From assembly GCA_018806915.1 (NCBI GenBank), contig JAGKQI010000073.1, positions 1,054,001 through 1,118,000 on the forward strand: a stretch of 64,000 nt of DNA, written 5' to 3'. The first letter of the stretch is position 1, and each line of letters begins with the position of its first letter. Of the stretch, positions 25,739-60,311 are shown in pieces. The DNA comes from Phytophthora colocasiae (lineage: Eukaryota > Oomycota > Peronosporomycetes > Peronosporales > Peronosporaceae). A model generated the notes under the pieces. It made no database searches and was not told the origin of the DNA. It was given only the letters and a program-made list of their open reading frames with translations. Both the position numbers and the translations under genes were made by a program.

Positions 25739-25929
25739 CTACATTCTGGTAGATTTGGCTTCTCTTGCTTGTCATGACAAGCAAAACTCAAATAAACCAA
25801 CATGTACTGTATACTCATGCGTCTTCATCTTCCTGTACACACTCTTATCTTGCTAATCAATGTCGATTTTGACAAGCAAACAGTAACAATTCCTTGCTTC
25901 TGACGACTTCATCCTTTTCACAGCTGAAT
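25739..25929. other. Spacer between cofilin and P450
   Basis: Short convergent intergenic region that must hold the 3' ends of both genes. AAATAAACC near 25791 could serve as a polyadenylation signal for cofilin. Confidence 0.4.
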
Positions 25930-33836: not shown

Positions 33837-34274
33837 GGTTATGAGCTCAACAGGTTATGGACTCCAACGCTTCACCTGCGTGGATGAAGAACCGGAGACG
33901 CTTGATTCAAGCTCCTCTCAAGAATCAACGAGGCAAGAGAATCGCCCCGGAGAAACCACGTGTCTAGCAAGCCTGACGGCTGCCACGTGTATTCCTGCAA
34001 ACGAAGCCCTACACTACCAAATGCGCCAGCCACTGAGCTGTAGCGCTGCATGAGCTGTACTATCACCATGCGGAGAGGCTATGAAGCCTCCGCGCCAGCG
34101 TTCGAGCTGTACCGCTGCATGAGTTACAATTTCCATGCTATTCCGGCTACTGCCGAGGTGTGAGGGCACGATGCCCTATGCGCCAGCTCTGACGATGCTG
34201 CGCTGCATTAGCAGAACATCTGCCATGCTCTGTCTTTATCCAGCAGGCCAAGAGCTCTGGAAAGCTAAGTGCAC

Positions 34275-35969: not shown

Positions 35970-38209
35970 CACTAACTACAGCATTTAGTGTTAGTGGATG
36001 AATAGTGTTAGTTTTTATATAGCGTTATTAACACTAATTTGTGTGGGCTCTGAAAGGCAAGAAAAACTAACACTATTTTAGGTATGGCGGCAGAGAAGCT
36101 CAGACCAATGCATATGCAGCTCAAACACTTCCTAACATTCTCCAAGAGCAGCACTTCGCCACCCACAACCTTTGCACGACACGAATTATCCTGCCGCACC
36201 AAGCACGCATCTGTCGATATCTCAAGCACCACCTACCGTTTCTACTCCGCAAGTGTGCTCGACAAAACGACCATACACGATTGTTGTGGCGATGGATCGT
36301 GCTAGACGACTAGCTCAACAGCAACGCGAATGCGCGCAAGCGCGTGAAAACGCTGGCTCACATGAACCTAGTGCGCCCGGAACTGGTGAAGATGACATCT
36401 CACAAGTCGCGCAAGTTGAAGTATCAAAAACTTCAGGAAAACGTAAACGACAGGTCCAACACGTCGTGACAAAGCAAGAGCGATATTCGGTTATTAATTG
36501 GATGATTGCTGAGAATGAGAAAAGCTCACGCTTTCTTTTCAAACGCACCATCGATGCCTTTCCCGGTTGCTTTAGAGCTTCATCAGACTCGGCCAATTTC
36601 ATGAAAGCTTCGCGTTGGTGGAATAACCATGAAGGATTTTTGGCAGCTTGTGCTGATCCAACCAATCGCATGTCGGTTCAGGCTTTGCAGTCAGGAATAA
36701 GGAAGCACGTCATGCTGAAGGCGTTGCCCGGACGTGGCCGCCGTCGCGATCCATGGACAGAATGGCTACATGTTGAGCTCCTGGACGAATTCCACAGACT
36801 GCGCAAGGCGGGACTGAAGATGTCACCATCAGTGTTAGTGGGTGTTGCTCAGCATTTACTCATTAACTCTCGTCATGCTGAGTATACAAAGACATTTACT
36901 CCGCCCGGTTCAGAAGTCTCACTGTACGATCGTTTAAATATTCGGTGGGTGCAGACATTCCAGGACAGATTTAACATCGTCCAGCGGAGACAAGCGGGAA
37001 AAAAGCAGCTCAGTCCCCAGAAACAACTTCAAATCGAAAAGGAGGTCGCATTTCACATGGGTACATTGAAGAGGGGGTTTGAGAGTGGCCAATTTAGCAA
37101 TGATCAAATGTACAATATGGACGAGACGCATTTTATCGTGGATATGGACAACGGAAAGACACTCAGTTTTAAAGGAGATCAGCATGTAAAATACGCCGAC
37201 GTTGTTTCGGGTACGACTGGAATGACAATGGTCGTGCTGATTCAAGGCGGATACTCGGCTAGAGTAGGGACACCGATGATGATATTCACCAGTTCAAGCT
37301 GCAACTACCCCATTCGAGGTGTCCCAGACAATGTACGAGGTAAGGTTTTTTGTTTCAAATTGATTGGTCCTAGCTGTACAGTCCAAACATTTTGTTTTAA
37401 AGGTGTGGCATACCGAACAGCAAAAAAAGGATTTATGACGTCGAAGGTTTTTGCTCAATGGCTCGGTGAAGCTCGGATTCTACGGAGACTACCGAGAGAG
37501 CAGAAAATGATTATCTGGGCTGATAACTACAGCGGTCATAGCCTTTCGGACGACGCAAAGCAGCAACTTACTCGTCTTAACGCGGAGATTCGCTTCTTCC
37601 CAGCCAACGCGACTCATTTGGTTCAGCCAGCAGATTCATTCGTCTTCTCCAAGATAAAAGACGCCTGGACTAAGCGTTGGGAAGCAAAGAAGGTGGAGAT
37701 GATCAGAGCAAATGAGTGGCAGAATGATATTCGGAGTGACGGTTCTTGGTCGGGCGCTCTGCGGAACCCGGGTAAATCCTTCTTGAACCTCGCAGCTGAT
37801 GCCGTTGAAGATGTGAACCTGCAGCGAACCAAAAAGGGCAACATCACGTACGCGCAAAAGGCGATGGTACGTTGTGGTCTTGTTACCGTAAATGGCAAGT
37901 GGAGAATTGATCAGCTAAGTGAAGAGCTTCAGTTTATCATTGCAGATCATTATGATCATTTTCAAGGCAAACCGGTTGAAGATGCTGGCCCAGCACAACT
38001 ACAACCGTCTAAAGATCTTACACTAGCACAGGCTCAGACGCAAACCCTGTCTGGAGAGCGGCTAGAGGCTATTGTATAAGAATTCCTTCTTATTTATACC
38101 ATCGCTAACACTAATTGTTTGTACCACAGATAGAACACTAATTTCAGTGCATAATCTCAGAGCAGGGCCTCATGAGTAGTGTTATTAACACTAAATGCTG
38201 TAGTTAGTG
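35970..38209 (+). mobile_element. pogo/Tc1-type DNA transposon, complete
   Basis: A 2,240-bp element with perfect 24-bp terminal inverted repeats (35970-35993 and 38186-38209, starting CACTAACTACAGCATTTA), flanked by TA on both sides (35968-35969, 38210-38211). One long transposase gene lies inside. Subterminal copies of AACACTAATT / AGTGTTAG occur several times at both ends. Intact ends and an open transposase suggest recent activity. Confidence 0.93.
36292..38079 (+). CDS. pogo-like DDE transposase
   Basis: DDE-superfamily transposase of about 595 codons from ATG 36292 (the frame opens further upstream without an ATG). The N-terminal DNA-binding region is residues about 40-190 (KQERYSVINWMIAEN; RGRRRDPWTEWLHVELLDEF), then RWVQTFQDRFNIVQRRQAG. 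Catalytic acids are in YNMDETHFIVD (first Asp), IIWADNYSGHSL (second Asp) and PANATHLVQPADSFVFSKIK (third Asp). A stretch at 37340-37402 begins GTAAGG, ends AAAG and is 63 bp, like the introns of neighbouring genes. It is in frame with no stop and interrupts the conserved NVRG/VAYRT segment, so it is probably an intron that can also be read through. Confidence 0.88.
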   Translation: MDRARRLAQQQRECAQARENAGSHEPSAPGTGEDDISQVAQVEVSKTSGKRKRQVQHVVTKQERYSVINWMIAENEKSSRFLFKRTIDAFPGCFRASSDSANFMKASRWWNNHEGFLAACADPTNRMSVQALQSGIRKHVMLKALPGRGRRRDPWTEWLHVELLDEFHRLRKAGLKMSPSVLVGVAQHLLINSRHAEYTKTFTPPGSEVSLYDRLNIRWVQTFQDRFNIVQRRQAGKKQLSPQKQLQIEKEVAFHMGTLKRGFESGQFSNDQMYNMDETHFIVDMDNGKTLSFKGDQHVKYADVVSGTTGMTMVVLIQGGYSARVGTPMMIFTSSSCNYPIRGVPDNVRGKVFCFKLIGPSCTVQTFCFKGVAYRTAKKGFMTSKVFAQWLGEARILRRLPREQKMIIWADNYSGHSLSDDAKQQLTRLNAEIRFFPANATHLVQPADSFVFSKIKDAWTKRWEAKKVEMIRANEWQNDIRSDGSWSGALRNPGKSFLNLAADAVEDVNLQRTKKGNITYAQKAMVRCGLVTVNGKWRIDQLSEELQFIIADHYDHFQGKPVEDAGPAQLQPSKDLTLAQAQTQTLSGERLEAIV

Positions 38210-38537: not shown

Positions 38538-38816
38538 TGTTGAAGTTACCATCTCTACAGTGATGACACCTATCTAAGGGTATTAAATTGTGCAGTTCCA
38601 TATAGAGAAATCCTATTTAACTGGACTGGTTGGTAGAGAATAACTCCCCTCAAGACACCAGACTCTCTAATTCATCACTTCTTCTTTTACCATCTTCAGC
38701 ACACAAGCCCATTCTTCATCTACACTCAAGACTTCCTCTCCAATATTCTATGCATTATTTTATTCGTCTCCATCCTCCGTCTACCTAACAAATCTGCGCA
38801 AATCATTACTCCAACA
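38538..38816 (+). repeat. 3' LTR of the non-coding element
   Basis: It is 279 bp, followed by the target duplication GCCTG (38817-38821) and preceded by the purine-rich GTGGGAGG. Confidence 0.88.
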
Positions 38817-38821
38817 GCCTG

Positions 38822-41103: not shown

Positions 41104-42199
41104 AATCATCACACCATGATCTCGGGAGAATCGGAGGATTACATCTCCACCTCTGGTTTTTCAGGGTTGTGCAATGCATAGACTTTCACGTTGCGTGTTT
41201 GAGAAGAAATGTTAGGTAGAAGACTCAGGTTTTTACCATGGGTTTTGTCATGAGGCCTAATGCAAAACAAGAAAACAAATACTATGCTTGTTAAGTTTTG
41301 GTACGAAGTTTCGTGGTCTGTAGGATCGGATGCAATTCAGTGATGGCAAGATCGGATACAGTTGAAGTTGATGGCCCGTCACATGAAATTGAAGACTCGT
41401 CTCATGGCTAGCGCCACAAATTATTACTGTATACGATTTATATATAAAAGCTTCTTCTAACGCCTATCTACCCCACATCGTTCTCGTGTACCTTACCTTT
41501 GCCCTGTCACCACTCGCAACTGGTTTGGTTAGACCAGGATTACCGCATGGGTGCACGGAACGGACACGGCGGCGGACGAGCGACGAACCTTACGTGAAGA
41601 TAGAACGCGACGGTGATTGAACCCGTGACCATCTGTTTAGAAATGCTGAGGCTACCCGAGCCCGACAGCAAGTTGCAAATATTATAGTCTCGCTGCACTT
41701 TGTTTTGATACTTCAATAGATTTGTGATGGGCATTTCTAATGCGTGAGTACACTATTTTGTTGATCCGGAACTAGATCTTGATCAGAGTTTTTAAAATTG
41801 TATACACTCAAATTGCATTTCGGACTATTTGGCTATTGAACTGGATCCAGTTCCATCCAGGAACTGATCCCAAAAAATGTAACCCTTCGCGTCATCTCCA
41901 ACATCCATTTAAATTCGAATAATATCGTTGACGGCCATTTTACTCAGATGATTTCCAGCTGAGCCAAAAAGACAGCAAGGCGCTAGTTCCTTAGTTGCGA
42001 ACTGGGTAAACTCCTCCAGAAAAGACTGGTTTTACACTTTTACCAGCAGCAACGACACCTCGTTGCTCCCATACTCACCCGTCGTCGACTCTGAGTTGCC
42101 GTCGGACTTCTTAACGAGCGGAATTAAGAGATCGGTGCCACTTGACTTCGTGGAAACACTCCTGCGGCCCGACGGCCCAGCAATATCACAGAGTGTTTT
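41104..42199. other. Region without recognised gene
   Basis: About 1.1 kb, no ORF with a recognisable product. Near 41590-41660 the minus strand has a tRNA-like word (GGGTTCAATCAC) that is not enough to call a tRNA or SINE. Confidence 0.4.
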
Positions 42200-44100
42200 C
42201 ATCAGACTTCAGCTTCATGTCCAAATGAAGAAAGTGTGTGGACCCCACGTACTATCCCCTCCACTTCATCAACCATTTGCTAAAAGCTGGGTTGGCATCC
42301 ACTGAGGGTGCTTCTTCTTCCATCTTGTGTACCTGCATCTTTGCCACTTCCAGCACCTCCAGAAACTTCTCCGCAGGAACAAGTTGACCAATACGGTCGC
42401 TATCAGCAAGGCCATTGTCGTCAACCGCACACTTGTCGATTGCGAGAAGTATCAGAATGCAAGCCACCACCTCATCAACTCCATCAGACTCCAGCACGTT
42501 GTTCACAATCAACTTCTTTTGTTCAGGTAAAACTTGACAAGGCTATTTCTGCACTTGTACCAAACTTTAACCCTTTCGCGCACATGGATGCATTTGCTGC
42601 CAACGACAGTCTTTGCAAAAGTGGATGACGTACTCAAAGGTAGCAAAATGCTACCATCGAGTCGAAGGGTCGTGTAAACACTACCACGTTTTGGAACTCG
42701 CAGATTAAAGTTATATTTTTGGCCAATAGCAGAGCTTATTTTAAAGACTTCGAAGACATCTGTGTTGTAGCCAACTTTACGATCGCCGACCCTTCGAAAT
42801 GGCTACACGTCGGAGGAGACGTTTTGCTACCTTCCATTTTCAATTGTCTTGAGTTTGTCTAGTATACAAAGTCACTGTGTTCGCGAAGGGGTTAACCGCT
42901 CCGAACGCGAGCACAAGGGTCGGACGAGTAGCTGCTGAGGAAAGAATATCTCTTGACAGTCACCAAGGCCAAAGTCGCCATGAAATTTGCCACAGCTCGA
43001 GACGCCAACGCCGACGTCGAGGACGGATTCAGACCCAGGTGGCACAGGCACAGGCGGCACAACATGGACGCGCCCGTGGACGGTGAAATGGCTCTCCCTC
43101 CAAGGACCCACCCCCAGCGTCAGCTTGTTGGCAGCGAATACGGCCTATTGATGCTTATGGACCCTTACAGAACACCATAACGGCCGTCCCAATACGCTTC
43201 AAAGCGTCTCAAGCCTCGTACTCGCCTCCAGTCACAACCCGCCTGTACATAACCAACTGGTCACTCATTGACACCTCCTTTTCCGTTTCTTCGCGGCAGT
43301 AGCTTCCAATAGTTTGTCGCTTTTCCATCCGGTCGCGTCGTGTACATTCCAACCCCGTGTACGCTTTCAAACCGATCCCGACAATATTGCTGCCAACACG
43401 CGTCCATAGTGTGCGTCAGGACAAAAGGTCGGAACGACGGCAGGTTTCTGCTACCTGGAGAGGAAAGATTTACCTGGTAAGGCGGAGGCAACGGATCACA
43501 AGTCGTAAATATGGGGTTTGTACCCACCAGCACGCTCCCATCTTGCCTATACTTTCGTTCACCGAAACAAGAGCACGTAGTAGCAACTGGGGGGGATGGT
43601 CCAATCCAATTGTAGAGCTGTCGACCAGGCGCCTCGCCTCGTCGATCACCACAACCACCAGCTTCTCACTCGCTTTCGTCTGCGTCCAGGATGGTTTGTC
43701 ACTCGACTTGGCTTCATGACGCTTTCGTGTTTCTTCCAACGAGTCTACCACTACAGCATCTGTCGACGGGTACGTGAAAAGACCCAACCATTGAACTTGA
43801 ACAGTGTCCCAGTACTCCATCGCGTAGTGGAATATCGCCTTCAATCGCTGGGTGGTCCCCTCCACTGTAGCCTGATTCTCAAACAGCCTGTCATTCAGCT
43901 TGGGTGTAGCCTTGGGATATCCTGTCGAGTTGTTCGCACGAATACATCTGTACAGCACTTTCATGTACAGATCTTGGTCCTTCTTCGCCTTGGCCGCAAG
44001 CTCCCAAATCATCCTACTCTTGCTGAAGCCGGAGCTCTGCACTTCCACGTATGGGGCCTTGAATCTACAAGGGTAGTGCTGGTTTGTTGCACAGCAACGA
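42200..44100 (-). pseudogene. Crinkler (CRN) effector C-terminal region, decayed
   Basis: Remnant of a CRN family protein, effectors that oomycetes deliver into plant cells. Segments in order on the minus strand: an NTPase-like start at 44048 (VEVQSSGFSKSRM, where the P-loop Gly before Lys-Ser is Ser), a Walker B-like LVVVVIDEARRLVD near 43660, the part around 43430 (TMDACWQQYCRDRF), a frameshifted stretch near 43270-42880 related to the tandem array unit, and an end near 42512-42252 (ILLAIDKCAVDDNG). Several stops and frame changes, no signal peptide or LFLAK-type leader seen. Not functional as read. Confidence 0.72.
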
Positions 44101-44325
44101 CGTAGATACTGAGCGAACTTGAGATGGACATCGCCGATGTACAGATTGGGTGTTGCCTTATGCTCTTGTTCAGAAACAGAACGTGTTCTCTAACAACGTA
44201 CACTCTTTATTGCTCTTGGTCAAAAATGGTTTTGGTACCATGTACCATTTTGCTAGGTTCGCGTTCTCAACCAATTTTTCTGGGAACATATTCAGTAGGT
44301 GTTCTAGTTTGGGCACGTTTGTACC

Positions 44326-44912: not shown

Positions 44913-44999
44913 GTTATTTTCCGCTCCATTTCTATTCGCTCAGGGTCTAACAACGATCAATCCCTGCGGAATGGATAGGAGGGAGGGGGGATTGCGAGT

Positions 45000-46114
45000 G
45001 TCGCTGTTGGTCAACCAACCAAAATCGTACTTAAAGCCCTAAAACTGGTTCCAAACCCTTGATCAAGTCCAAATTGAGGTTTTGACCTGATTTGATCAGG
45101 GCCGGTATTGGTCCATTTAAAATCCTTCGAATCAGAAGATCGGCGCCATACTGGCCTCGCGGAAACTCGCCTGCAGCCCGAAGCCCCAACAAGTACCACA
45201 ACGTGTCCTTGTTTGGCTCCAGCACTAATTGCACAAAATGGGTAAACCCCATCTGTCAATTCCCTCACTTCGATAGCCATTCGTTGCACTTTTGTGTTTG
45301 TTCCACCGAGAGTTTTCGGAACCCTTTGTGGTACATTTGCATTTTTTCGACTTGCAGCTCTGCCAGAAACCTGCTCACCGGGACAAGCTGACCAATAAGA
45401 TTGTGGTTCACTTTACCGTTATCATCAAGGACACTTCTATCCATCGCAAGCAGCAATATAATTCGAGCGACCATCTCCCCAACACCTCCAGCATCCAGAA
45501 CTTCGTTAAAAATCAGCTTCTTCAGCTAAGGTAGAATGCAGTTCACGAGTACGGTTTTGTGTTCGTACCACACCTTAATTGCACCACATGTGAGTGCAGG
45601 GTCTGACGCATAGTTGTTAAGGTGGCAATCGTGTTAAGGCGGCAATCGCGTTAAGGTGGTAATCGCGCTCAAAATTGACGTAGGCGAGAATGGCCATGAA
45701 GTCTCCGACGGCTCGAGACACGAATGACGAATTTGAGTAGGGGCGCACGCCCAATCGACACAGCATCGATGCAACTCCGAACAGGGTGCTTTCGTTGTAG
45801 TTACTTCTTTGCGACGGGCCAACCCCCAACACCAGCTTGTTTGCAGCGAGATCGATCACTTTGGTTTTATCTCCGATAATGCCGTACCATAATGGATGAC
45901 CCATACGGTTCAGCATACACCACGCAATCTCCTCGTTTCCTGTTACAACTTGCTTGTATATGATGATCTGGTTGGCCATCGGAACCTTGATCTCCTTCTC
46001 TTGGTTAGGGGCTAGTAACCCGTCCCCACTTTCGTTCGTCTCCTCGTCCTCAATGATGCCTGCGGCAGGCCCTGCCAATGTCTGTTGACAGTACTCCTTC
46101 CAATTCACATCCAT
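45000..46114 (-). pseudogene. CRN C-terminal fragment, left arm of the inverted repeat
   Basis: From 46114 on the minus strand: MDVNWKEYCQQTL, then IIIYKQVVTGNEEIAWCMLN, then VIDLAANKLVLGVGPSQRS and YVNFERDYHLNAIA, ending at an 18-bp triplicated motif near 45617-45660. Past a stop, the next CRN segments continue: ARIILLLAMDRSVLDDNG near 45450 and GFTHFVQLVLEPNKDTLWYL with GLRAAGEFPRGQYGADLL near 45150. This order is that of the far C-terminus of CRN proteins. It is the first (leftmost) unit of the tandem array and the only one with the natural downstream CRN sequence, besides its mirror image at 51844-52805. Confidence 0.7.
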
Positions 46115-49100
46115 AGTCTTTATATGTATACGCTGTAAATTTGTTGAAATAATTTCTACGTAGGTTCAAATCCTACTTTCTCCAAACCAAACAAAAGTAT
46201 TATGTTATATCTAATATTTAAAGTTCTTGATTTAAAAAGTATCTTTAATTGAACTTTTAATTACTAAAACTAATTTTATTTCATTTTCTTTAATTAAATA
46301 ATTAATTACTTTATTAAATGTTGTGTCCATAATTTTATTAGTTAAGGTGGCAATCGCGTTAAGGTGGTAATCGCGCTCAAAATTGACGTAGGCGAGAATG
46401 GCCATGAAGTCTCCGACGGCTCGAGACACGAATGACGAATTTGAGTAGGGGCGCACGCCCAATCGACACAGCATCGATGCAACTCCGAACAGGGTGCTTT
46501 CGTTGTAGTTACTTCTTTGCGACGGGCCAACCCCCAACACCAGCTTGTTTGCAGCGAGATCGATCACTTTGGTTTTATCTCCGATAATGCCGTACCATAA
46601 TGGATGACTCCATACGGTTCAGCATACACCACGCAATCTCCTCGTTTCCTGTTACAACTTGCTTGTATATGATGATCTGGTTGGCCATCGGAACCTTGAT
46701 CTCCTTCTCTTGGTTAGGGGCTAGTAACCCGTCCCCACTTTCGTTCGTCTCCTCGTCCTCAATGATGCCTGCGGCAGGCCCTGCCAATGTCTGTTGACAG
46801 TACTCCTTCCAATTCACATCCATAGTCTGTATATGTATACGCTGTAAATTTGTTGAAATAATTTCTACGTAGGTTCAAATCCTACTTTCTCCAAACCAAA
46901 CAAAAGTATTATGTTATATCTAATATTTAAAAGTTCTTGATTTAAAAAAGTATCTTTAATTGAACTTTTAATTACTAAAACTAATTTTATTTCATTTTCT
47001 TTAATTAAATAATTAATTACTTTATTAAATGTTGTGTCCATAATTTTATTAGTTAAGGTGGCAATCGCGTTAAGGTGGTAATCGCGCTCAAAATTGACGT
47101 AGGCGAGAATGGCCATGAAGTCTCCGACGGCTCGAGACACGAATGACGAATTTGAGTAGGGGCGCACGCCCAATCGACACAGCATCGATGCAACTCCGAA
47201 CAGGGTGCTTTCGTTGTAGTTACTTCTTTGCGACGGGCCAACCCCCAACACCAGCTTGTTTGCAGCGAGATCGATCACTTTGGTTTTATCTCCGATAATG
47301 CCGTACCATAATGGATGACCCATACGGTTCCAGCATACACCACGCAATCTCCTCGTTTCCTGTTACAACTTGCTTGTATATGATGATCTGGTTGGCCATC
47401 GGAACCTTGATCTCCTTCTCTTGGTTAGGGGCTAGTAACCCGTCCCCACTTTCGTTCGTCTCCTCGTCCTCAATGATGCCTGCGGCAGGCCCTGCCAATG
47501 TCTGTTGACAGTACTCCTTCCAATTCACATCCATAGTCTGTATATGTATACGCTGTAAATTTGTTGAAATAATTTCTACGTAGGTTCAAATCCTACTTTC
47601 TCCAAACCAAACAAAAGTATTATGTTATATCTAATATTTAAAGTTCTTGATTTAAAAAGTATCTTTAATTGAACTTTTAATTACTAAAACTAATTTTATT
47701 TCATTTTCTTTAATTAAATAATTAATTACTTTATTAAATGTTGTGTCCATAATTTTATTAGTTAAGGTGGCAATCGCGTTAAGGTGGTAATCGCGCTCAA
47801 AATTGACGTAGGCGAGAATGGCCATGAAGTCTCCGACGGCTCGAGACACGAATGACGAATTTGAGTAGGGGCGCACGCCCAATCGACACAGCATCGATGC
47901 AACTCCGAACAGGGTGCTTTCGTTGTAGTTACTTCTTTGCGACGGGCCAACCCCCAACACCAGCTTGTTTGCAGCGAGATCGATCACTTTGGTTTTATCT
48001 CCGATAATGCCGTACCATAATGGATGACCCATACGGTTCAGCATACACCACGCAATCTCCTCGTTTCCTGTTACAACTTGCTTGTATATGATGATCTGGT
48101 TGGCCATCGGAACCTTGATCTCCTTCTCTTGGTTAGGGCTAGTAACCCGTCCCCACTTTCGTTCGTCTCCTCGTCCTCAATGATGCCTGCGGCAGGCCCT
48201 GCCAATGTCTGTTGACAGTACTCCTTCCAATTCACATCCATAGTCTGTATATGTATACGCTGTAAATTTGTTGAAATAATTTCTACGTAGGTTCAAATCC
48301 TACTTTCTCCAAACCAAACAAAAGTATTATGTTATATCTAATATTTAAAAGTTCTTGATTTAAAAAGTATCTTTAATTGAACTTTTAATTACTAAAACTA
48401 ATTTTATTTCATTTTCTTTAATTAAATAATTAATTACTTTATTAAATGTTGTGTCCATAATTTTATTAGTTAAGGTGGCAATCGCGTTAAGGTGGTAATC
48501 GCGCTCAAAATTGACGTAGGCGAGAATGGCCATGAAGTCTCCGACGGCTCGAGACACGAATGACGAATTTGAGTAGGGGCGCACGCCCAATCGACACAGC
48601 ATCGATGCAACTCCGAACAGGGTGCTTTCGTTGTAGTTACTTCTTTGCGACAGGCCAACCCCCAACACCAGCTTGTTTGCAGCGAGATCGATCACTTTGG
48701 TTTTATCTCCGATAATGCCGTACCATAATGGATGACCCATACGGTTCAGCATACACCACGCAATCTCCTCGTTTCCTGTTACAACTTGCTTGTATATGAT
48801 GATCTGGTTGGCCATCGGAACCTTGATCTCCTTCTCTTGGTTAGGGGCTAGTAACCCGTCCCCACTTTCGTTCGTCTCCTCGTCCTCAATGATGCCTGCG
48901 GCAGGCCCTGCCAATGTCTGTTGACAGTACTCCTTCCAATTCACATCCATAGTCTGTATATGTATACGCTGTAAATTTGTTGAAATAATTTCTACGTAGG
49001 TTCAAATCCTACTTTCTCCAAACCAAACAAAAGTATTATGTTATATCTAATATTTAAAAGTTCTTGATTTAAAAAAGTATCTTTAATTGAACTTTTAATT

Positions 49101-51787
49101 ATTAAAACTAATTTTATTTCATTTTCTTTAATTAAATAATTAATTACTTTATTAAATGTTGTGTCCATAATTTTATTAGTTAAGGTGGCAATCGCGTTAA
49201 GGTGGTAATCGCGCTCAAAATTGACGTAGGCGAGAATGGCCATGAAGTCTCCGACGGCTCGAGACACGAATGACGAATTTGAGTAGGGGCGCACGCCCAA
49301 TCGACACAGCATCGATGCAACTCCGAACAGGGTGCTTTCGTTGTAGTTACTTCTTTGCGACGGGCCAACCCCCAACACCAGCTTGTTTGCAGCGAGATCG
49401 ATCACTTTGGTTTTATCTCCGATAATGCCGTACCATAATGGATGACCCATACGGTTCAGCATACACCACGCAATCTCCTCGTTTCCTGTTACAACTTGCT
49501 TGTATATGATGATCTGGTTGGCCATCGGAACCTTGATCTCCTTCTCTTGGTTAGGGGCTAGTAACCCGTCCCCACTTTCGTTCGTCTCCTCGTCCTCAAT
49601 GATGCCTGCGGCAGGCCCTGCCAATGTCTGTTGACAGTACTCCTTCCAATTCACATCCATAGTCTGTATATGTATACGCTGTAAATTTGTTGAAATAATT
49701 TCTACGTAGGTTCAAATCCTACTTTCTCCAAACCAAACAAAAGTATTATGTTATATCTAATATTTAAAAGTTCTTGATTTAAAAAAGTATCTTTAATTGA
49801 ACTTTTAATTATTAAAACTAATTTTATTTCATTTTCTTTAATTAAATAATTAATTACTTTATTAAATGTTGTGTCCATAATTTTATTAGTTAAGGTGGCA
49901 ATCGCGTTAAGGTGGTAATCGCGCTCAAAATTGACGTAGGCGAGAATGGCCATGAAGTCTCCGACGGCTCGAGACACGAATGACGAATTTGAGTAGGGGC
50001 GCACGCCCAATCGACACAGCATCGATGCAACTCCGAACAGGGTGCTTTCGTTGTAGTTACTTCTTTGCGACGGGCCAACCCCCAACACCAGCTTGTTTGC
50101 AGCGAGATCGATCACTTTGGTTTTATCTCCGATAATGCCGTACCATAATGGATGACCCATACGGTTCAGCATACACCACGCAATCTCCTCGTTTCGTTAC
50201 AACTTGCTTGTATATGATGATCTGGTTGGCCATCGGAACCTTGATCTCCTTCTCTTGGTTAGGGGCTAGTAACCCGTCCCCACTTTCGTTCGTCTCCTCG
50301 TCCTCAATGAGTGCCTGCGGCAGGCCCTGCCAATGTCTGTTGACAGTACTCCTTCAATTCACATCCATAGTCTGTATATGTATACGCTGTAAATTTGTTG
50401 AAATAATTTCTACGTAGGTTCAAATCCTACTTTCTCCAAACCAAACAAAAGTATTATGTTATATCTAATATTTAAAAGTTCTTGATTTAAAAAGTATCTT
50501 TAATTGAACTTTTAATTACTAAAACTAATTTTATTTCATTTTCTTTAATTAAATAATTAATTACTTTATTAAATGTTGTGTCCATAATTTTATTAGTTAA
50601 GGTGGCAATCGCGTTAAGGTGGTAATCGCGCTCAAAATTGACGTAGGCGAGAATGGCCATGAAGTCTCCGACGGCTCGAGACACGAATGACGAATTTGAG
50701 TAGGGGCGCACGCCCAATCGACACAGCATCGATGCAACTCCGAACAGGGTGCTTTCGTTGTAGTTACTTCTTTGCGACGGGCCAACCCCCAACACCAGCT
50801 TGTTTGCAGCGAGATCGATCACTTTGGTTTTATCTCCGATAATGCCGTACCATAATGGATGACCCATACGGTTCAGCATACACCACGCAATCTCCTCGTT
50901 TCCTGTTACAACTTGCTTGTATATGATGATCTGGTTGGCCATCGGAACCTTGATCTCCTTCTCTTGGTTAGGGGCTAGTAACCCGTCCCCACTTTCGTTC
51001 GTCTCCTCGTCCTCAATGATGCCTGCGGCAGGCCCTGCCAATGTCTGTTGACAGTACTCCTTCCAATTCACATCCATAGTCTGTATATGTATACGCTGTA
51101 AATTTGTTGAAATAATTTCTACGTAGGTTCAAATCCTACTTTCTCCAAACCAAACAAAAAAGTATTATGTTATATCTAATATTTAAAAGTTCTTGATTTA
51201 AAAGTATCTTTAATTGAACTTTTAATTACTAAAACTAATTTTATTTCATTTTCTTTAATTAAATAATTAATTACTTTATTAAATGTTGTGTCCATAATTT
51301 TATTAGTTAAGGTGGCAATCGCGTTAAGGTGGTAATCGCGCTCAAAATTGACGTAGGCGAGAATGGCCATGAAGTCTCCGACGGCTCGAGACACGAATGA
51401 CGAATTTGAGTAGGGGCGCACGCCCAATCGACACAGCATCGATGCAACTCCGAACAGGGTGCTTTCGTTGTAGTTACTTCTTTGCGACGGGCCAACCCCC
51501 AACACCAGCTTGTTTGCAGCGAGATCGATCACTTTGGTTTTATCTCCGATAATGCCGTACCATAATGGATGACCCATACGGTTCAGCATACACCACGCAA
51601 TCTCCTCGTTTCCTGTTACAACTTGCTTGTATATGATGATCTGGTTGGCCATCGGAACCTTGATCTCCTTCTCTTGGTTAGGGGCTAGTAACCCGTCCCC
51701 ACTTTCGTTCGTCTCCTCGTCCTCAATGATGCCTGCGGCAGGCCCTGCCAATGTCTGTTGACAGTACTCCTTCCAATTCACATCCAT
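45634..51787 (-). repeat. Tandem array: nine ~710-bp units of CRN fragment plus mitochondrial-type DNA
   Basis: Nine direct copies with starts (end of CRN part) at 45634, 46342, 47053, 47762, 48470, 49180, 49890, 50597 and 51307, giving periods of 707-711 bp. Each unit has about 480-490 bp of a CRN C-terminal segment (MDVNWKEY... to ...YHLNAIA). Between successive units lies about 215-220 bp of very AT-rich DNA. Copies differ mostly by single-base indels and rare substitutions (for instance 48652, C to T on the minus strand). The open frames of 151-222 codons in the units start at the internal MDVNWKEY Met and run into the AT-rich part, so they are not independent genes. Confidence 0.93.
46131..46342 (+). 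other. AT-rich insert with 3' half of mitochondrial-type tRNA-Tyr (first of eight copies)
   Basis: Starts CGCTGTAAATTTGTTG, matching the anticodon loop (GUA) and 3' anticodon stem of a bacterial-type tRNA-Tyr. A long variable arm and a T-arm follow (GTAGGTTCAAATCCTAC, 46160-46176), ending CTTTCTCC; the 5' half is absent. After it come about 150 bp with hardly any G or C, with a minus-strand frame (ENEIKLVLVIKSSIKDTF) of the codon usage seen in mitochondrial genes. I read it as a nuclear copy of mitochondrial DNA. It recurs near 46841, 47552, 48260, 48968, 49678, 50386 and 51095. Confidence 0.75.
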
Positions 51788-51843
51788 AGTCTGTATGCGT
51801 ATACATATACATATATGTATATATGCGTATACATATACAGACT
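51788..51843. repeat. Fold-back centre of the array
   Basis: 56 bp of alternating GTATAC/ATATAC words, itself largely palindromic, between the last direct unit and the inverted unit. Both sides read CATCCATAGTCTGTAT or its complement. Confidence 0.85.
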
Positions 51844-52805
51844 ATGGATGTGAATTGGAAGGAGTACTGTCAACAGACATTGGCAGGCCTGCCGCAGGCA
51901 TCATTGAGGACGAGGAGACGAACGAAAGTGGGGACGGGTTACTAGCCCTAACCAAGAGAAGGAGATCAAGGTTCCGATGGCCAACCAGATCATCATATAC
52001 AAGCAAGTTGTAACAGGAAACGAGGAGATTGCGTGGTGTATGCTGAACCGTATGGGTCATCCATTATGGTACGGCATTATCGGAGATAAAACCAAAGTGA
52101 TCGATCTCGCTGCAAACAAGCTGGTGTTGGGGGTTGGCCCGTCGCAAAGAAGTAACTACAACGAAAGCACCCTGTTCGGAGTTGCATCGATGCTGTGTCG
52201 ATTAGCGTGCGCCCTACTCAAATTCGTCATTCGTGTCTCGAGCCGTCGGAGACTTCATGGCCATTCTCGCCTACGTCAATTTTGAACGCGATTACCACCT
52301 TAACGCGATTGCCACCTTAACACGATTGCCACCTTAACAACTATGCGTCAGACCCTGCACTCACATGTGGTGCAATTAAGGTGTGGTACGAACACAAAAC
52401 CGTACTCGTGAACTGCATTCTACCTTAGCTGAAGAAGCTGATTTTTAACGAAGTTCTAGATGCTGGAGGTGTTGGGGAGATGGTCGCTCGAATTATATTG
52501 CTGCTTGCGATGGATAGAAGTGTCCTTGATGATAACGGTAAAGTGAACGACAATCTTATTGGTCAGCTTGTCCCGGTGAGCAGGTTTCTGGCAGAGCTGC
52601 AAGTCGAAAAAATGCAAATGTACCACAAAGGGTTCCGAAAACTCTCGGTGGAACAAACACAAAAGTGCAACGAATGGCTATCGAAGTGAGGGAATTGACA
52701 GATGGGGTTTACCCATTTTGTGCAATTAGTGCTGGAGCCAAACAAGGACACGTTGTGGTACTTGTTGGGGCTTCGGGCTGCAGGCGAGTTTCCGCGAGGC
52801 CAGTG
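51844..52805 (+). pseudogene. CRN C-terminal fragment, right arm (inverted copy)
   Basis: Mirror image of about 45150-46114: the same CRN segments on the plus strand, from the MDVNWKEY start at 51844 through VIDLAANKLVLGVGPSQRS and NFERDYHLNAIATL to ARIILLLAMDRSVLDDNG (52480) and AAGEFPRGQ at about 52790, where similarity to the left arm ends. It has its own small losses (near 51889, 51946 and 52203), several in short G/C runs. No mitochondrial-type insert is present here. Confidence 0.85.
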
Positions 52806-53400
52806 TGAAGCTGTGGATTCAAATTTTCTATCTGGACACCGCCTCCCAGAGCCACCCAATATGTCGAGAGGTGATTGGCTGAGGCATCGAGTACCTGGGA
52901 CTGAGCTGTGGAACACATTTTCACCTTATTGCTTTAGGACTTCCGGAATCCGGACTTCCAGAATCCGGATGCCCGACCATGATCGGAGTCCACTATTCAG
53001 GAATCAAGTCCACCATGTGGTGCCCAAGTGAATTCCTGGTGCGTACTTCCGGAATCCAGATCCAGATTTCGGGGATCTGGATGCCATTCCAGTCAGGGCT
53101 AAGGGCTCAAGAATCCAGTCGCCCATACACAGACCAAGTGTATTCCGGATACATGCTTCCAGTGCTGAACTGAGGACTTCCGGATTCCAAGGATCGGGAA
53201 TCCAGATGACCAAAGGCGTCCGGACCCTGCCTGATTTGTACCCAGTATGGACATTGAGGTTCGGAGTATACTCAAGCCAAGTCAAGATCGACCGACCAAG
53301 ACGACCGACCAGGATGTGTTCGGCACCAGCCGGAATTCTTCGGGGTTCCGCGCCAGAGACACGCGCCTCCTGATGAGTGTGCGCTTCCTATAGTGAAAAC
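52806..53400. other. Transition from CRN arm to gypsy element
   Basis: No gene. From about 52930 on the sequence is dense in TCCGGA/TCCAGA/TCTGGA words like the gypsy element that follows, so it is probably part of that element or a related copy. Confidence 0.4.
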
Positions 53401-53430
53401 AAGATGTTAGCAGAATCTTTAGCAGAAGAC

Positions 53431-53441
53431 TTGTATATAAA
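53431..53441 (+). promoter_or_regulatory. Possible TATA box of gypsy element 2
   Basis: GTATATAAATA at about 53431-53441 in the leader, upstream of gag, could be the LTR promoter. The LTR limits are unknown. Confidence 0.4.
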
Positions 53442-54524
53442 TAACAGAGAGTTCAATTTGCCACCAAGGGCGCAAGTGGTCTTCTGGAAGGTTTTCCTGG
53501 AGGATACTGCAAAGCACTGCGGACCAGCCTCTTGTCAGAGGGCTTCGAGTTAGCTGAGCCAGCGTACGGCCGCGTCGACTGCGTACATCGCCGCGGGACT
53601 CTCCACCAAAGGTTCGAGACCAAGTTGGGTAAGTGATCCGGCGGCGCATCCGGAAGGGATCTTCCTATTTCATATTTCCAGTTGGAATCCGGATTCCGGA
53701 TTCACATTTCATATTATAACTGCGTTTTGGGAGGTTGTTAGTAGTTGGCCCCTTGGAACTGTATTGAATTAACTACTGTGTGATTGGACGTTTGCATCTG
53801 GATTCCTAGTCTAGATTGCATTTGGATTTTGGATATTTGGATATACAGGCATCTGGATATCCTGATCTTGGATATTGTCTTCCGGAAACCAAGTGGTTAT
53901 CCGGAAGTGGTGCGCTTGTTAGGGTCCCGGAACTGAGTCAGTGTTCCGGAAGTAGACCCCGTCGACTGGCATTGGGAGTGCCCACCGCTCGAGGGCCACA
54001 AAGAATAAGAGCGGCTGCGTGTTTTGCATATTAACTCTCTGTATTGTATTGGTTAACTGTTGGAAGAGGACTCTGCTAATAGTCTTTTGCCTTCCAGAAA
54101 ACCAACTGCATTTGGAAGTACTTTTGGTACTTTGGATCTTTGGATCTGATCACACCTGAAAGTAACTCACCTGGTGATACCCTTCGGATACTCGAAGACA
54201 AACGACACCAAGGAGGATAACCACAAGGTCACACGCCAACTCCGCCTTCTGGATACCCATTTGGATCCCGGAAGGTAGAGACTGACCCCAGTTCTCAAGT
54301 GTCATCTGGAAGTTTCCTTCCAGAATCGGACTGGCCACCAGCTATACGTTCTGGGCGACCGGGTTTTTTCTTTCAGAAAGTCCGGAAAGTGTTCACCCAC
54401 CTCGTCACAGCTGGTGCGCGTGCCCGGATTCGATACCGAAAGGGTTTTACCGAGTTATTTTTATATATTTTTTGATTAGTTTCAGGGGTTCTGAGTGCTA
54501 ACTAACTTTCTGATCGTAGTTGTG

Positions 54525-56348
54525 ATGGTTGGAAGTGAAAGCGCACGCAGAGGAGGAGACGCGGATTCTGGAAGCGGAATGGCATCCAGATCGTCGCGTC
54601 GGTTGAAGGGGCAGCAGCCTGAAGAGCATGAGGATTTGGATACTATCATGAAGAAAGCTCGTCAGGCCAACGCTGCGAAGCGAAGGGCTGCCCAAGAGGT
54701 GAAGGAGTCGTCGGATCATCTGGAAGAAGAATCTGAATCCTCCGTTCAGGAAGCGCACCACGCAAGTCTGGATGGAAGTGATTCGGAAGAGATTTCGGAA
54801 GGAGACAACGACCCTGAGCAGGAGGAATCTGGATCCATGTCGGATCTGGATGCAGAAGAGTCCGGATCGGAAGGTGATCCGGATGTGGAAGCCGAGAACG
54901 AGTCCGGTCTGGAGGAGTTCACGGCTGGTGAGGAGTCTGAGGTCGTCGGAAGTGATGCTGAAGATTCTGGAAGAGAAGCGTCGAGAGATGATGCTGTCGA
55001 GATCGAAGACCCTACGGAGGATAGAATTCAGGACTCTCCTCCGGAAGGTGCGAATCCAGATGCCGAACCTGATGTTCGAGAAGAGTCGCCACGAGTCAAG
55101 CAGGAAGCTCGCCCGTTGTCGCCGGTTCAGGAAGAAACTGTGCTTGAGGATACCAACATGTCTTCGCCAGTGATTCCGGAAATCCGGATGCCAACATTGT
55201 ATCCTGATGAGCCGCCGTTCTCGGCGCCCCCAGAAGCGCCTCGTCAAGAAGCTGCCAGGTTTGGTTTTCCGGATTCCAGAATGGAAGAATCTCCGGAAGC
55301 ACCGCCGGGGACGCCGGAAGTCCAGATGAGCGGAATCCAGATGAAGGCATATGTGGCTGAACAAGTGAGGCGTTGGGAACGTGACAACTCCGAAAGGAGC
55401 TTCGCATCTGATGTCGGATATGATTGGCCGCCACTATACCTGAATCCTGAAGGTTTCATTCAGGCTGCCTTGATGACTTCGGAACACCTGAACCGCCGGA
55501 TGTTGATGCCGGCTCAGACGGACGCCTGGATTTCAGAACTCCAGATTCAACGTCGGTCATTTGGAAGGGCACAAGATCTTCAGGGTGCCATGATCCCGCC
55601 GAAGGAGTTTTCGCCTCGTGAATGCATCGCAGTCCTGCAGACAATGCTTTTCGAAGCGGGATTTGGATTTGTGAATTTGGTGCCTGGATGGTTCCGGACG
55701 CGAGTTTTCAAAGTGCATCCGGATCTGGTTCGGCAAGTTGTTGGGGAAATGTTGCAGCTATTGGTCGTGGAGATGATCGAATGGAGACAACTAGTGACGC
55801 GAGCTCAGGAGTACGCCCAGATCCTGATGACAACTGGAAGGGAACGACTTTGTCAAGTACATCCGGAAGCCCAATTTCAGGGTGAAGGTGTATTCATGTC
55901 GGATTACGAGGTATCTCTGCTGGGACGAGATTTCACTAGACAACTGAAGGCATCTGGATTCCGGAAGGTTCGGAGTCCTCGCGGACCCACCTATCAGGAA
56001 ATCCGGCCGAAGCGAGTGCAACGTGTAAGGCCTCGGCCACCGCCGTCGTCAATCCCGTCGCCGTCGCCCTCATCCCTGCAGTCTGTGCCATCTTCGCTAG
56101 TCCGGAATCTGGAAGCGGATCTGGAATCCGGAAGTCACATGTCTTCGTTCCATAGTCTTTCTGATAGGACGAATTCGGCACGTACCTCCAGTATGTTCGA
56201 GACTTCCGGAGGATCAAGTGAGTCAATGGCGAGTGCGACTTCCGGAACTCGGACTTCCAGAGAGAGCACCTCGGATTCTTCTGGATTCGGGATGGCAGAA
56301 GTGCAGGAACGCATATGCCATTCTCCGCCTTCAGGCCGATGGCGATGA
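54525..56348 (+). CDS. Acidic gag-region ORF of gypsy element 2
   Basis: Starts at ATG 54525 (MVGSESARRGGDADSGSG). Residues about 60-220 are strongly acidic (Glu/Asp/Ser-rich), then a Pro-rich stretch. A folded-looking part follows (residues about 270-480, EQVRRWERDNSERSFASDVG; WISELQIQRRSFGRAQDLQG; LVPGWFRTRVFKVHPDLVRQ), then a Ser-rich tail. No known domain recognised. It overlaps the next frame by about 30 bp (56315-56348), which suggests a frameshift fusion to the gag proper. Confidence 0.6.
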   Translation: MVGSESARRGGDADSGSGMASRSSRRLKGQQPEEHEDLDTIMKKARQANAAKRRAAQEVKESSDHLEEESESSVQEAHHASLDGSDSEEISEGDNDPEQEESGSMSDLDAEESGSEGDPDVEAENESGLEEFTAGEESEVVGSDAEDSGREASRDDAVEIEDPTEDRIQDSPPEGANPDAEPDVREESPRVKQEARPLSPVQEETVLEDTNMSSPVIPEIRMPTLYPDEPPFSAPPEAPRQEAARFGFPDSRMEESPEAPPGTPEVQMSGIQMKAYVAEQVRRWERDNSERSFASDVGYDWPPLYLNPEGFIQAALMTSEHLNRRMLMPAQTDAWISELQIQRRSFGRAQDLQGAMIPPKEFSPRECIAVLQTMLFEAGFGFVNLVPGWFRTRVFKVHPDLVRQVVGEMLQLLVVEMIEWRQLVTRAQEYAQILMTTGRERLCQVHPEAQFQGEGVFMSDYEVSLLGRDFTRQLKASGFRKVRSPRGPTYQEIRPKRVQRVRPRPPPSSIPSPSPSSLQSVPSSLVRNLEADLESGSHMSSFHSLSDRTNSARTSSMFETSGGSSESMASATSGTRTSRESTSDSSGFGMAEVQERICHSPPSGRWR

Positions 56349-58825
56349 CCGCACGGGGATCTGGAAGTGCTGCGCCGATGGATTCTGGAATCGCTTTTGA
56401 GATTTCCCACAGGAACCCGGAAGCCGAAGATCAAGACGTCCCGCAGGGATCAGACTTGAATCGCGAGAAGCCCAGGAAGAAGCGTACAAAGTCATCTTCA
56501 AGGAGGCGAGAAATGCTTCAGGAATCCCAGGCTGTAGACGCATCCCGATCACGAGGCATTCAGAAGTCTGGGAGTTGGGATCGTGAAGTTCCAGAAACTT
56601 CAGCAAGGTCTGAGCGCTCTTCGAAGTCCGCCAGTTCTGGATCCACGCAAGTTGCCCTGAACACCATGTTCCAACTTCAGAAGGTCATGGCCAGGATGGA
56701 AGATCAGCAAGGGTCTGCGCTGGAGAGGATGTCAGGCGATCTGGATGCGAAGCTTGAACGCCTTCTGGATTCCAAGTTTCAAAGACTCTTCCAGAAGAAG
56801 GAAGCGATCCCAGATCTGGTCTCGGACGAGGATTCACGCTTGACAGTCAAGAATCTGGAGGTTCGGTCATCCGGACACCAATCTCACAAGCGGCACCCGG
56901 AAGCAGTTCGAGGTTCCGCCGCCAAGTCGAGCTCCTCCAAGGACGCGAAGGTGAAGGAGCTTCAGCAAGAACTCGAAGCCTCGGAGTCTGCGCGGAAGAA
57001 GGAAGGAGAAGCAGCGAGGGCTGTCCAGAAGTTTTTGGCCACCCAAGTTCGCGACCTGAAATCGGTGACTGCCAAGACCCCTGTCGCAGCTGAGACAGAT
57101 GGGCGTAATCATGATTCTCAGGAATCAGGTGCGTCCTATCATCCGACTCTGTACCCAGTATCCAGTAACGCATCCCGAGGTGCATCCCATCTGAGTTCTC
57201 GTAAAACAGATGTTGGGAATCCAGATGAAGCCTTTGCCGCACAGCTTGAGGCAGCTCTCCAACTGGTCACTCGTGAATCCAAGACCCCTAGGGCTCAAGT
57301 GACCAAGTCCTCGACACCCCAGGCGCTCGTGGTGAAGAAGGAATCGACATCCAGAAGGAGAGAGGCGTCTGGAAGCGAGAGCCAGGGTATCCGGAAGCGT
57401 TCAGGTGAGGATGGCTCGAAGAAGCGTTCGTCCAAGGAGTCTGGATCGTCGAAGCGGGGTTCAACGTCCAAGCGTGAGAAGGGTGGAACTTCCAGAAGGA
57501 AATCCCCTTCAGGATATCCAAGTTCTTCGGATCCAAGTTCCGAATCGAGTAGTTCTTCGGATTCCGGAAGTTCGGATAGCAGTTCGTTCGAAGACAAGAC
57601 CCCTGTGGTGACGACGACCAAGTCCGGAGGGACGATGACATACATGTTCAAGCCATTCGTGAATGCAAGCACTTTGGAAGACTTTGATGAGAAGGCGGCG
57701 CTGGCCACTCGGATGCGCTGGCTGGAACGCTTCCAGAGTATGTCCGTTCAGGGTGGCTGGGCCGATAACGTGAAAATCTACGAGATGAAGCTCAAGTTGT
57801 CTCCGGCCGTCCGGAACTGGAGAGCGAATCTGGATCCGAAGGTCCGTCGCAACTGGAAAAGATTCCTGAAGGCTTTCAAGGAGCGCTACTGTAAGGCGAG
57901 GACTTCGGATGCGGAAAGGTACTATACGATGGTTCAGAAGAAGCATGAGACGCCTTTGGATTTCTATTACCGCCTGAACAAGGTGGCTGATAGAGCCGGT
58001 ATCCGGATCGACGGATCGACCAAGCTCCGTGAGCAGCATCTGAAAGCCTTCACCAAGAAGCTTCTGGATTCCAGACTCCGGACTACCCTCCAAGGTCAAC
58101 GCCTTCGGAGTTTGGAAGATGTCGAGTACGTCCTGAAGCAACATGAAGAACTGAATTTGGAAGACGACTACGACACTCCACCTCCGAAGCGGGATTTCCG
58201 GGCGGATAACGTACCTCGTGAGAAGTTTCGCCCAAAGCGTTCCGGATCCGGAAGAGCATACACTGCTCAGAGTGACGCTGACTCTGAAGATCCTGACCGA
58301 CACGTCCGTTTTCAGGATGAGGAAGGCAAGATGACTCTGGAAGCCTCGAAAGCATCTGCGTCTACGAAGTCTGGCGATCCAGATTCTGGATTCCCGACCA
58401 TGGATGATCTCTCAGATACCGTCTTCAAGATTCTTCAAGAGGGAGGCTGGAAGCCCCAATCCCCTTCAGGACGCCAAGGTGACCAACAATCTTCGGAGCA
58501 TCAAGACTCCAGACGCCAAGGTTTCCGGAATCCGAATTACAGTGCAAGATACTGTGAGAACTGCCGCAATTTCGGACATGTCAAGGAGGATTGTTGGGCA
58601 GATATCGAGTGTGAACGCTGTCATCGGAAGGGCCATCCTGTGCGATTCTGTCGGATGCGTCAGTGTGATTTCTGCAACAAGTATCACGATGGACATTGTG
58701 AAGAGCTGAAGGCCCTTCGGGATCTCAAGAGTCTCGTTCAACAAGGAGCTTTGGATATACCGACTGCTATCCGGAAGAAACTTCTGGATGGAGATGCAGA
58801 TTCTGGGGAACAACCGTTAAACTAG
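56315..58825 (+). CDS. gag of gypsy element 2 with zinc knuckles
   Basis: 836 codons. Ser/Lys-rich and coiled-coil first half (LQKVMARMEDQQGSALERMS; VKELQQELEASESARKKEGE). The Retrotrans_gag domain is at residues about 465-600 (LKLSPAVRNWRANLDPKVRR; WKRFLKAFKERYCKARTSDA; TPLDFYYRLNKVADRAGIRI). At residues about 748-805 it has a Cys/His cluster: CENCRNFGHVKEDC (CX2CX4HX4C), CERCHRKGHPVRFC (same spacing) and CDFCNKYHDGHC, three knuckles in a row, which is more than most gypsy gags carry. Ends at 58825. Confidence 0.85.
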   Translation: MPFSAFRPMAMTARGSGSAAPMDSGIAFEISHRNPEAEDQDVPQGSDLNREKPRKKRTKSSSRRREMLQESQAVDASRSRGIQKSGSWDREVPETSARSERSSKSASSGSTQVALNTMFQLQKVMARMEDQQGSALERMSGDLDAKLERLLDSKFQRLFQKKEAIPDLVSDEDSRLTVKNLEVRSSGHQSHKRHPEAVRGSAAKSSSSKDAKVKELQQELEASESARKKEGEAARAVQKFLATQVRDLKSVTAKTPVAAETDGRNHDSQESGASYHPTLYPVSSNASRGASHLSSRKTDVGNPDEAFAAQLEAALQLVTRESKTPRAQVTKSSTPQALVVKKESTSRRREASGSESQGIRKRSGEDGSKKRSSKESGSSKRGSTSKREKGGTSRRKSPSGYPSSSDPSSESSSSSDSGSSDSSSFEDKTPVVTTTKSGGTMTYMFKPFVNASTLEDFDEKAALATRMRWLERFQSMSVQGGWADNVKIYEMKLKLSPAVRNWRANLDPKVRRNWKRFLKAFKERYCKARTSDAERYYTMVQKKHETPLDFYYRLNKVADRAGIRIDGSTKLREQHLKAFTKKLLDSRLRTTLQGQRLRSLEDVEYVLKQHEELNLEDDYDTPPPKRDFRADNVPREKFRPKRSGSGRAYTAQSDADSEDPDRHVRFQDEEGKMTLEASKASASTKSGDPDSGFPTMDDLSDTVFKILQEGGWKPQSPSGRQGDQQSSEHQDSRRQGFRNPNYSARYCENCRNFGHVKEDCWADIECERCHRKGHPVRFCRMRQCDFCNKYHDGHCEELKALRDLKSLVQQGALDIPTAIRKKLLDGDADSGEQPLN

Positions 58826-59539: not shown

Positions 59540-60311
59540 ACTTGGACCAGGTGAACAAGCTGTCGTCCGGATTAATTACGGGCAGAGCAATCCGCAACGT
59601 GAAGTGGTCTGGGCTGGCAGAGGTGATCGCTGGGTGACGCAGCTGATATATGGGGCGAAGTCCTGGGCGGTCGCTGTGAAGGTGGTAAATATTTCGGATA
59701 AGGATGTTTGGATCGACACAAACACCCCGGTCGCCCAGATTGTGGAATACGGATGTTATCCATTTGGAAGGTTCGTCAGACCTGGACTCCGGAGGTATCG
59801 TGAATGGGAAGTCCTGATATACGAGAACACCAATTCTCATCAGGAAGTATTACGTCAACGGAGATACCTTCAGGCGATCCAAGCTTCCCAACCCCCAAGT
59901 GTTCAGAAGCCGGAATATCCCTGGCCCAAGAAACTTTTGATGAGACCTCCCAGGGGTGGTTCTGAAGTCCGCATGGTTCGACTACAAGATCCCCCGAAGG
60001 ACATCCAGAAAGGTGAAAGCCCACTTCCAGATGCCGCCGTTTCGGAATTCCAGAATCCTGATAGCATATTGACTGTAAATGAACATCGGGAGGGAATTTC
60101 GAATGAGACTTCAGGAAGACAACAGGTTCCAGAAGGCGATGGTTTTCTGGATTCCGACGGTGACGAGTGGTTTGATGCGATCTCCATGGATGAGAATGTG
60201 CCAAGGGACGAGATTCCAGACGCAGAAGAGGATTCTGGAACGGATCCATCAGGAAGACAATTTAGACGCAGAAGAGGATTCTGGAACGGATCCATCAGGA
60301 AGACAATTTAA
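59540..60311 (+). pseudogene. Pol linker between protease and RT, broken by a tandem duplication
   Basis: Pol sequence between protease and RT (GDRWVTQLIYGAKSWAVAVK; VWIDTNTPVAQIVEYGCYPF). It continues the protease C-terminal part, then a variable acidic stretch. The frame ends at 60311 because of a 46-bp duplication at 60218-60309. Confidence 0.6.
60218..60309 (+). repeat. 46-bp tandem duplication
   Basis: Two adjacent identical 46-bp copies (60218-60263, 60264-60309; starting AGACGCAGAAGAGGATTCTG). 46 is not a multiple of three, so it shifts the reading frame of pol. Confidence 0.92.

Follow-up and report, generated by a model that had tools for sequence, protein, structure and literature searches.

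Nuclear mitochondrial DNA segments (NUMTs) are known to occur in tandem: a 7.9-kb NUMT is present in 38-76 copies in the cat, and a 47-bp NUMT is repeated 18 times on human chromosome 12 (PMC2820518). In the genus Phytophthora, the NUMT counts reported in the same source are 675 for P. infestans, 152 for P. sojae, and 8 for P. ramorum, and end joining at double-strand breaks is given there as a route by which mitochondrial DNA is captured (PMC2820518). Here, we describe a tandem array in Phytophthora colocasiae whose unit joins a fragment of a degenerate NTPase-family gene to DNA of mitochondrial origin. It lies in a window of 64,000 nucleotides (assembly GCA_018806915.1, contig JAGKQI010000073.1, positions 1,054,001 to 1,118,000), and positions below are those of the window unless a contig or locus is named. 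With a probability of roughly 0.65, we propose that a composite NUMT came to form a tandem-duplication junction and that its amplification followed, all within one arm of a palindrome formed by the dead gene.

Like the arrays of cat and human, this one places mitochondrial DNA in head-to-tail repeats at a single locus of a nuclear chromosome (PMC2820518). It differs from them in that the unit is a chimera of 490 bp of nuclear gene and two tiny mitochondrial scraps, that the array is mostly nuclear by repeated length, and that it sits in a palindrome. With other Phytophthora NUMTs it shares the presence of organelle pieces in the nucleus, but for those the accessible part of PMC2820518 gives counts only and describes no structure like the present array. 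The resemblance to NUMT capture by end joining lies in a short organelle filler with little microhomology, namely 2 bp (GT) at the junction of rps2 with the gene, as seen by eye against the copy on contig C58 described below. Here, however, the filler closes a duplication junction instead of an insertion point. The chimeric unit and its readable link to the palindrome are new, while NUMTs in Phytophthora and tandem NUMTs elsewhere are already known. A narrow literature search of incomplete coverage returned no title describing a chimeric NUMT array in Phytophthora. A 2006 paper reportedly dealt with the NUMT content of P. sojae and P. ramorum.

In the array, near-identical gene-fragment copies of 487-490 bp alternate with AT-rich spacers (Table 1). 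The fragments start at positions 45634, 46342, 47053, 47762, 48470, 49180, 49890, 50597, and 51307. The spacers measure 219-221 bp (n = 8), or 210-212 bp if counted from the GCTGTAAA border, and their G+C content is far from that of the gene fragments (19.3% in spacer 2 vs 50.4% in fragment 2). The longest self-match of the window covers 5,475 bp at 99.4%. The initial annotation had reported nine tandem copies of a chimeric unit; the nine gene fragments are indeed there, but the mitochondrial spacers number eight. Whole-genome DNA searches, in which the best candidates were scored, covered the assembly of 92.5 Mb in 105 contigs. Complete units were found at the array locus only (7/7 candidates scored), and the gene fragment free of a spacer was found in the right palindrome arm and at C46:1126078. 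Spacer matches (9/9 candidates scored) comprised the eight in the array and one partial match of 92% at C58:2635407-2635544; another match on C58, with an E-value of 0.8, was at chance level. A single locus with nine copies makes the initial name 'satellite' an overstatement. That class comprises long or multi-locus tandem arrays, and 'local tandem array' is the better description.

Read in antisense, the spacer frame matched 52 of 55 candidate proteins, the weakest with an E-value of 5.3e-10. All 52 contain a ribosomal S2 domain, and those with a named organism come from Phytophthora or Peronospora. The match with the best E-value is rps2 of P. pluvialis (93% over 64% of the query). The frame tracks full-length rps2 from about residue 110 to residue 152 and then departs from it, while rps2 continues to residue 197. 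The remainder of the spacer contains the 3' half of a tRNA with the anticodon GTA (Rfam tRNA, E 0.094; its 19.6 bits fall short of the gathering score of 29); its identity as tyrosine was assigned by visual inspection of the anticodon together with the long variable arm. ARAGORN reported no tRNA in the window, as is expected for half a tRNA. On this sequence evidence, namely the S2-domain matches, the partial tRNA, and the rps2 alignment, the AT-rich part of the unit is mitochondrial in origin, as first annotated. Its location is nuclear: contig C46, which carries the array, has a length of 1.49 Mb, about 40 times that of a Phytophthora mitogenome (37.6 kb), and the G+C content of the window is about 50%. 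A mitochondrial contig was not found in the assembly by searches with four families (COX1, two short fragments; PF00361, none; PF00146 and PF00033, one match each). Rfam returned four matches at E-values up to 10, all under their gathering scores. Besides the tRNA, these were two plastid untranslated-region families covering the same tRNA bases in the opposite orientation (the better one with 27.7 bits vs 68, E 0.0005) and a viral small nuclear RNA family, and they were set aside.

The initial annotation assumed one captured mitochondrial segment. In the mitogenome of P. nicotianae, a circle of 37,561 bp, the gene for tRNA-Tyr (GTA), trnY, occupies positions 4350-4433 and rps2 positions 36278-36871, which places them about 5.0 kb apart (PMC5550686). 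Gene order is reported to be conserved across ten Phytophthora mitogenomes save for three inversions (PMC7224479), and on the P. nicotianae map these inversions reach neither trnY nor rps2. The spacer therefore probably joins two separate mitochondrial scraps, half of trnY and an internal piece of rps2, which were probably apart when captured.

The gene sequences on the two sides of a spacer reveal how the unit was joined. On the left, the gene fragment stops at the equivalent of position 8567 of locus L010, which holds a fuller copy of the same gene region; on the right, the gene resumes in a 17-bp microrepeat, at about L010 8079. These two points are not contiguous in the fuller copy, and the mitochondrial DNA thus fills a tandem-duplication junction, located beside the palindrome centre, rather than interrupting the gene at a single point. 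The initial view of a simple insertion at a break in the gene has to be given up accordingly. Its borders for the AT-rich part were close to those found here. The right one falls inside the microrepeat, whose period is 17 bp by Tandem Repeats Finder and not 18, and the left one is found at the anticodon loop of the tRNA half, adjoining TATGTATACGC. The junction of gene, 11-base filler TATGTATACGC, and tRNA is identical in 8/8 spacers, which bears out the notion of one founding chimeric junction that was amplified later. The filler equals the 11 bases with which the 40-bp palindrome centre begins when read from the right arm; beyond them, the sequences diverge. On this agreement, the break was probably located in the palindrome centre. 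A break at this site, patched by two organelle scraps and rejoined to the microrepeat, is the simplest reading of the junction.

In the palindrome itself, positions 45147-46133 match 52807-51825 in inverted orientation at 98.9%, and each arm was about 1.14 kb long before the right one was split at 52803/52804 by a long terminal repeat (LTR) retrotransposon. The array is located in one arm only. The element has paired 1.6-kb LTRs that start with TGTGAAG and end with CGTCACA (TG...CA), with the target duplication CCAG on either side; aligned over 1,606 columns, the two LTRs show 6 substitutions and 2 gap columns. Past the 3' LTR, the right arm continues with L010 5699-5868, which matches 45154-44985. 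The fuller copy is flanked by further inverted partial copies. One of these inverted copies (L010 6323-7017, compared with 9213-8526) stands out as more diverged, with 2.47% substitutions vs 0.2-0.7% in the other comparisons. Neither the palindrome nor the LTR element nor the fuller copy featured in the initial annotation.

Table 1. Coordinates of the array, its parts, and associated features (window positions unless C46, the contig, or L010, the locus of the fuller gene copy, is named)
Feature	Position	Strand	Basis or remark
Left palindrome arm: 3' part of degenerate NTPase-family gene; distal 489 bp = array copy 1	44985..46122	-	99.3% to C46:1125430-1126567 (L010 7430-8567); inverted match to right arm
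17-bp microrepeat GTTAAGGTGGCAATCGC of the gene, 3.1 copies; rejoining point of every spacer	45616..45667	.	Tandem Repeats Finder and sequence
Tandem array, 9 gene-fragment copies and 8 mitochondrial spacers, period ~709 bp	45634..51795	-	
11-bp TA-rich filler TATGTATACGC between gene fragment and tRNA half (copy 1)	46123..46133	.	
Mitochondrial piece 1 (copy 1): tRNA 3' half, GTA anticodon (to 46184), and downstream DNA	46134..46220	+	Rfam tRNA 46143-46184; borders by eye
Mitochondrial piece 2 (copy 1): internal rps2 fragment, ~residues 110-152 of 197, antisense	46221..46341	-	Inner border placed where the frame leaves rps2
Palindrome centre, 40 bp, TA-rich; hairpin fold with flanks	51796..51835	.	
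Right palindrome arm: one inverted gene-fragment copy and flank, without mitochondrial DNA; resumes past LTR element at L010 5699	51836..52803	+	
5' LTR of retrotransposon	52804..54409	+	3' LTR C46:1122095-1123698; target duplication CCAG
Two open frames, 617 and 867 aa, behind 5' LTR; second gag-like	54495..58825	+	Retrotrans_gag E 0.0024, 18.5 bits vs cut-off 24.1 (second frame)
Fuller copy of same gene region, without mitochondrial DNA	C46:1125013-1127213 (L010 7013-9213)		~20 kb from array

At one site, a C is present in all nine gene-fragment copies, as opposed to a T in the right arm and in the fuller copy; copy 1 also runs without interruption into the native left flank. We infer from this that the array grew in place from the left arm. 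Four substitution events were detected within the array over 6,162 bp, of which copy 1 accounts for two and copy 5 for one, each private, and the fourth is common to spacers 5 and 6; the remaining differences are indels. Comparison of the 487-bp flanks of the three copies gave differences of 1-3. A count of nine fragments and eight spacers with one junction agrees with a single founding duplication followed by unequal exchange. Such low unit divergence, together with junctions identical among units, would also suit a rolling circle, that is, a small circle of gene fragment and mitochondrial DNA that formed once, was copied as a concatemer, and was integrated or extended in place. This is unlikely, as the continuity of copy 1 with the native left flank, including the microrepeats and the diagnostic C, has the look of growth in place, and the variant shared by the adjacent spacers 5 and 6 is what unequal exchange or conversion would give.

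The course of events under the composite-NUMT reading may be outlined as follows. A degenerate gene copy would first have given rise, by duplication, to two inverted arms around a TA-rich centre. This centre, able to fold as a hairpin, would then have broken. The broken left arm would have been joined, via the trnY half and then the rps2 piece, to the 17-bp microrepeat of the gene about 490 bp back, probably on the sister chromatid, so that a single mitochondrial spacer separated two copies of the gene fragment. Unequal exchange between the copies could have raised their number to nine fragments and eight spacers. The splitting of the right arm by the LTR retrotransposon would be a separate event.

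The gene was initially labelled as a CRN effector, and this label is not supported. The Pfam Crinkler family had no match at E-values up to 1 in 4/4 pieces of the fuller copy, one of which gave a chance-level match to another family, and none in two relatives (loci L013 and L014). Crinkler (PF20147) was also absent from 4/4 relatives of the same genome with long open frames (732-958 aa) that were scanned, and the LFLAK/HVL motif from eight frames, each 250 aa or longer, of five relative loci. Scoring of the best 82 of 196 candidates yielded 93 family matches in the genome. By eye, none of these (0/93) has a same-strand Crinkler match within 2 kb among the 150 matches listed out of 532 Crinkler candidates; the nearest one in this set lies 1.3 kb away on the opposite strand, on contig C47. 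A profile search, scored over the 7,996 candidates with the most words in common, identified 40 homologues. Nearly all of the named ones come from Phytophthora, Bremia, or Peronospora and are entered as uncharacterised, unnamed, or hypothetical proteins, and a few bear domain names (HECT, 2Fe-2S ferredoxin-type, AAA+ ATPase). PF20147 was detected in 1/40 homologues (P0082), which also has an RXLR match.

A Walker A motif (SSGFGKS) is present in 4/5 relative loci, and weak AAA-type matches below the cut-off occur among the relatives. The Walker A region of the homologue P0087 has no match in L010 but matches L014 and positions 43752-44141 of the window. The local gene copies are broken, with pieces falling in different frames. 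NCBIfam gave no match for two relatives. A search of solved structures returned one match to a fluorescent protein (E 1.9), taken as chance, and a further search none. The layout NTPase, HTH, and REase is described as common for the C-termini of Phytophthora CRN proteins (PMC5289972). The relatives examined here may resemble these NTPase-type C-termini in their Walker A motif, but the long ones tested differ from CRN effectors in lacking the Crinkler N-terminal domain and LFLAK. Judging by these matches, the gene would be a member of a degenerate NTPase-type family that resembles the NTPase part of CRN proteins. To the left of the array, on the minus strand, positions 41891-44141 contain a more diverged broken copy of the NTPase family, with 39-58% identity to P0058 in pieces longer than 14 aa.

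Two further insertions of organelle DNA were noted. One of them, at about C58:2635368-2635772 (locus L012, ~4869-5273; borders by eye), involves the same rps2 region and apparently lies inside an RXLR-type gene copy. PF16810 was matched at L012 4623-4868 and, in a neighbouring copy, at 5898-6254. The L012 piece 5216-5533 had no family match, and its stretch 5274-5329 is identical to part of the neighbouring RXLR-type copy. The other is a mitochondrial patchwork at about 248.4-249.2 kb of contig C30 (L025 ~1100-1900), in which fragments of the cob and cox1 families, each with a single match that stays under the curated cut-off, fall within 320 bp, accompanied by a tRNA-like stretch recognised by eye. 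Short organelle scraps are thus present elsewhere in the same nucleus, and the array is not the only composite organelle insertion there.

Several points weigh against the origin proposed here. The mitogenome of this strain may be rearranged, with trnY beside part of rps2. The C58 insertion also leaves rps2 near residue 152, and this shared exit may be either a coincidence or a hint of such a rearrangement. The naive chance of the 11-base agreement between filler and palindrome centre, 2.8e-6 from the composition of the centre, is an underestimate, because alternating TA-rich DNA agrees by chance more often. The edge of the ninth copy (from 51796) differs from that of the other eight, which implies that the palindrome centre has undergone remodelling. 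With 4 substitutions in the array vs 6 in the LTR pair, the former does not come out as significantly younger than the LTR insertion (P = 0.09). Finally, the analysis was made on the assembly, where polishing can make tandem copies falsely alike.

The last point leads to the explanation that palindrome and array were made or miscounted by the assembler. Both kinds of repeat are classic sources of error, and many of the differences between units are short indels, several of them in homopolymers. We consider an artefact improbable, since the arms differ by substitutions, the array is confined to one of them, and an LTR element flanked by its target duplication interrupts the other. Private substitutions in copies 1 and 5 also argue against it, and the mitochondrial DNA in the junction would be left unexplained.

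The array is probably without function, a scar, because it occurs at one locus, its frames are broken, and it has a single 21-mer in common with family members outside the cluster (eight loci, L013-L015 and L026-L030). The same count makes it very improbable that transcription of the palindrome yields double-stranded RNA silencing the NTPase gene family. Near-perfect inverted arms around a 40-bp centre would suit such a role, and small RNAs from CRN genes have been reported in P. infestans (PMC3522703). Extensive sharing of 21-mers is, however, confined to the neighbouring fuller copy (957, L010), with a further 100 in the mitochondrial insertion on C58. Head-to-tail amplification by a Helitron, suggested by the link between CRN genes and these transposons in P. 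infestans made in a review (PMC5289972), is hardly credible, given that the CTRR-TC end-to-start junction has no occurrence on either strand of unit 2 across its border and that the whole-genome searches revealed no dispersed units.

Some other repeats were observed in the window. A second large inverted repeat (25929-27565 / 27961-29597) has 1.6-kb arms of 77% identity. Two direct repeat pairs, 6365-6784 / 13836-14255 (420 bp, 99.3%) and 33558-33837 / 38538-38817 (280 bp, 96.4%), may be LTR pairs. Behind the 5' LTR, the first of the two open frames had no family match, and a 46-bp unit is present in two exact copies at 60218-60310, overlapping open frames.

A bolder view would make the palindrome centre a site that breaks recurrently, is healed with organelle DNA, and re-expands each time, with a copy number still variable among isolates. 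We regard this as quite unlikely; if true, the locus would be a satellite caught at birth, a fragile site patched with mitochondrial DNA that turns a decayed member of a gene family into tandem DNA. The birth of a tandem repeat is usually erased by age, and the repair steps are recorded unusually clearly in P. colocasiae: the founding junction, the filler, the array-free arm, and the fuller neighbouring copy all survive within about 30 kb. This locus allows testing whether palindrome breakage, capture of organelle DNA, and tandem amplification occur in succession.

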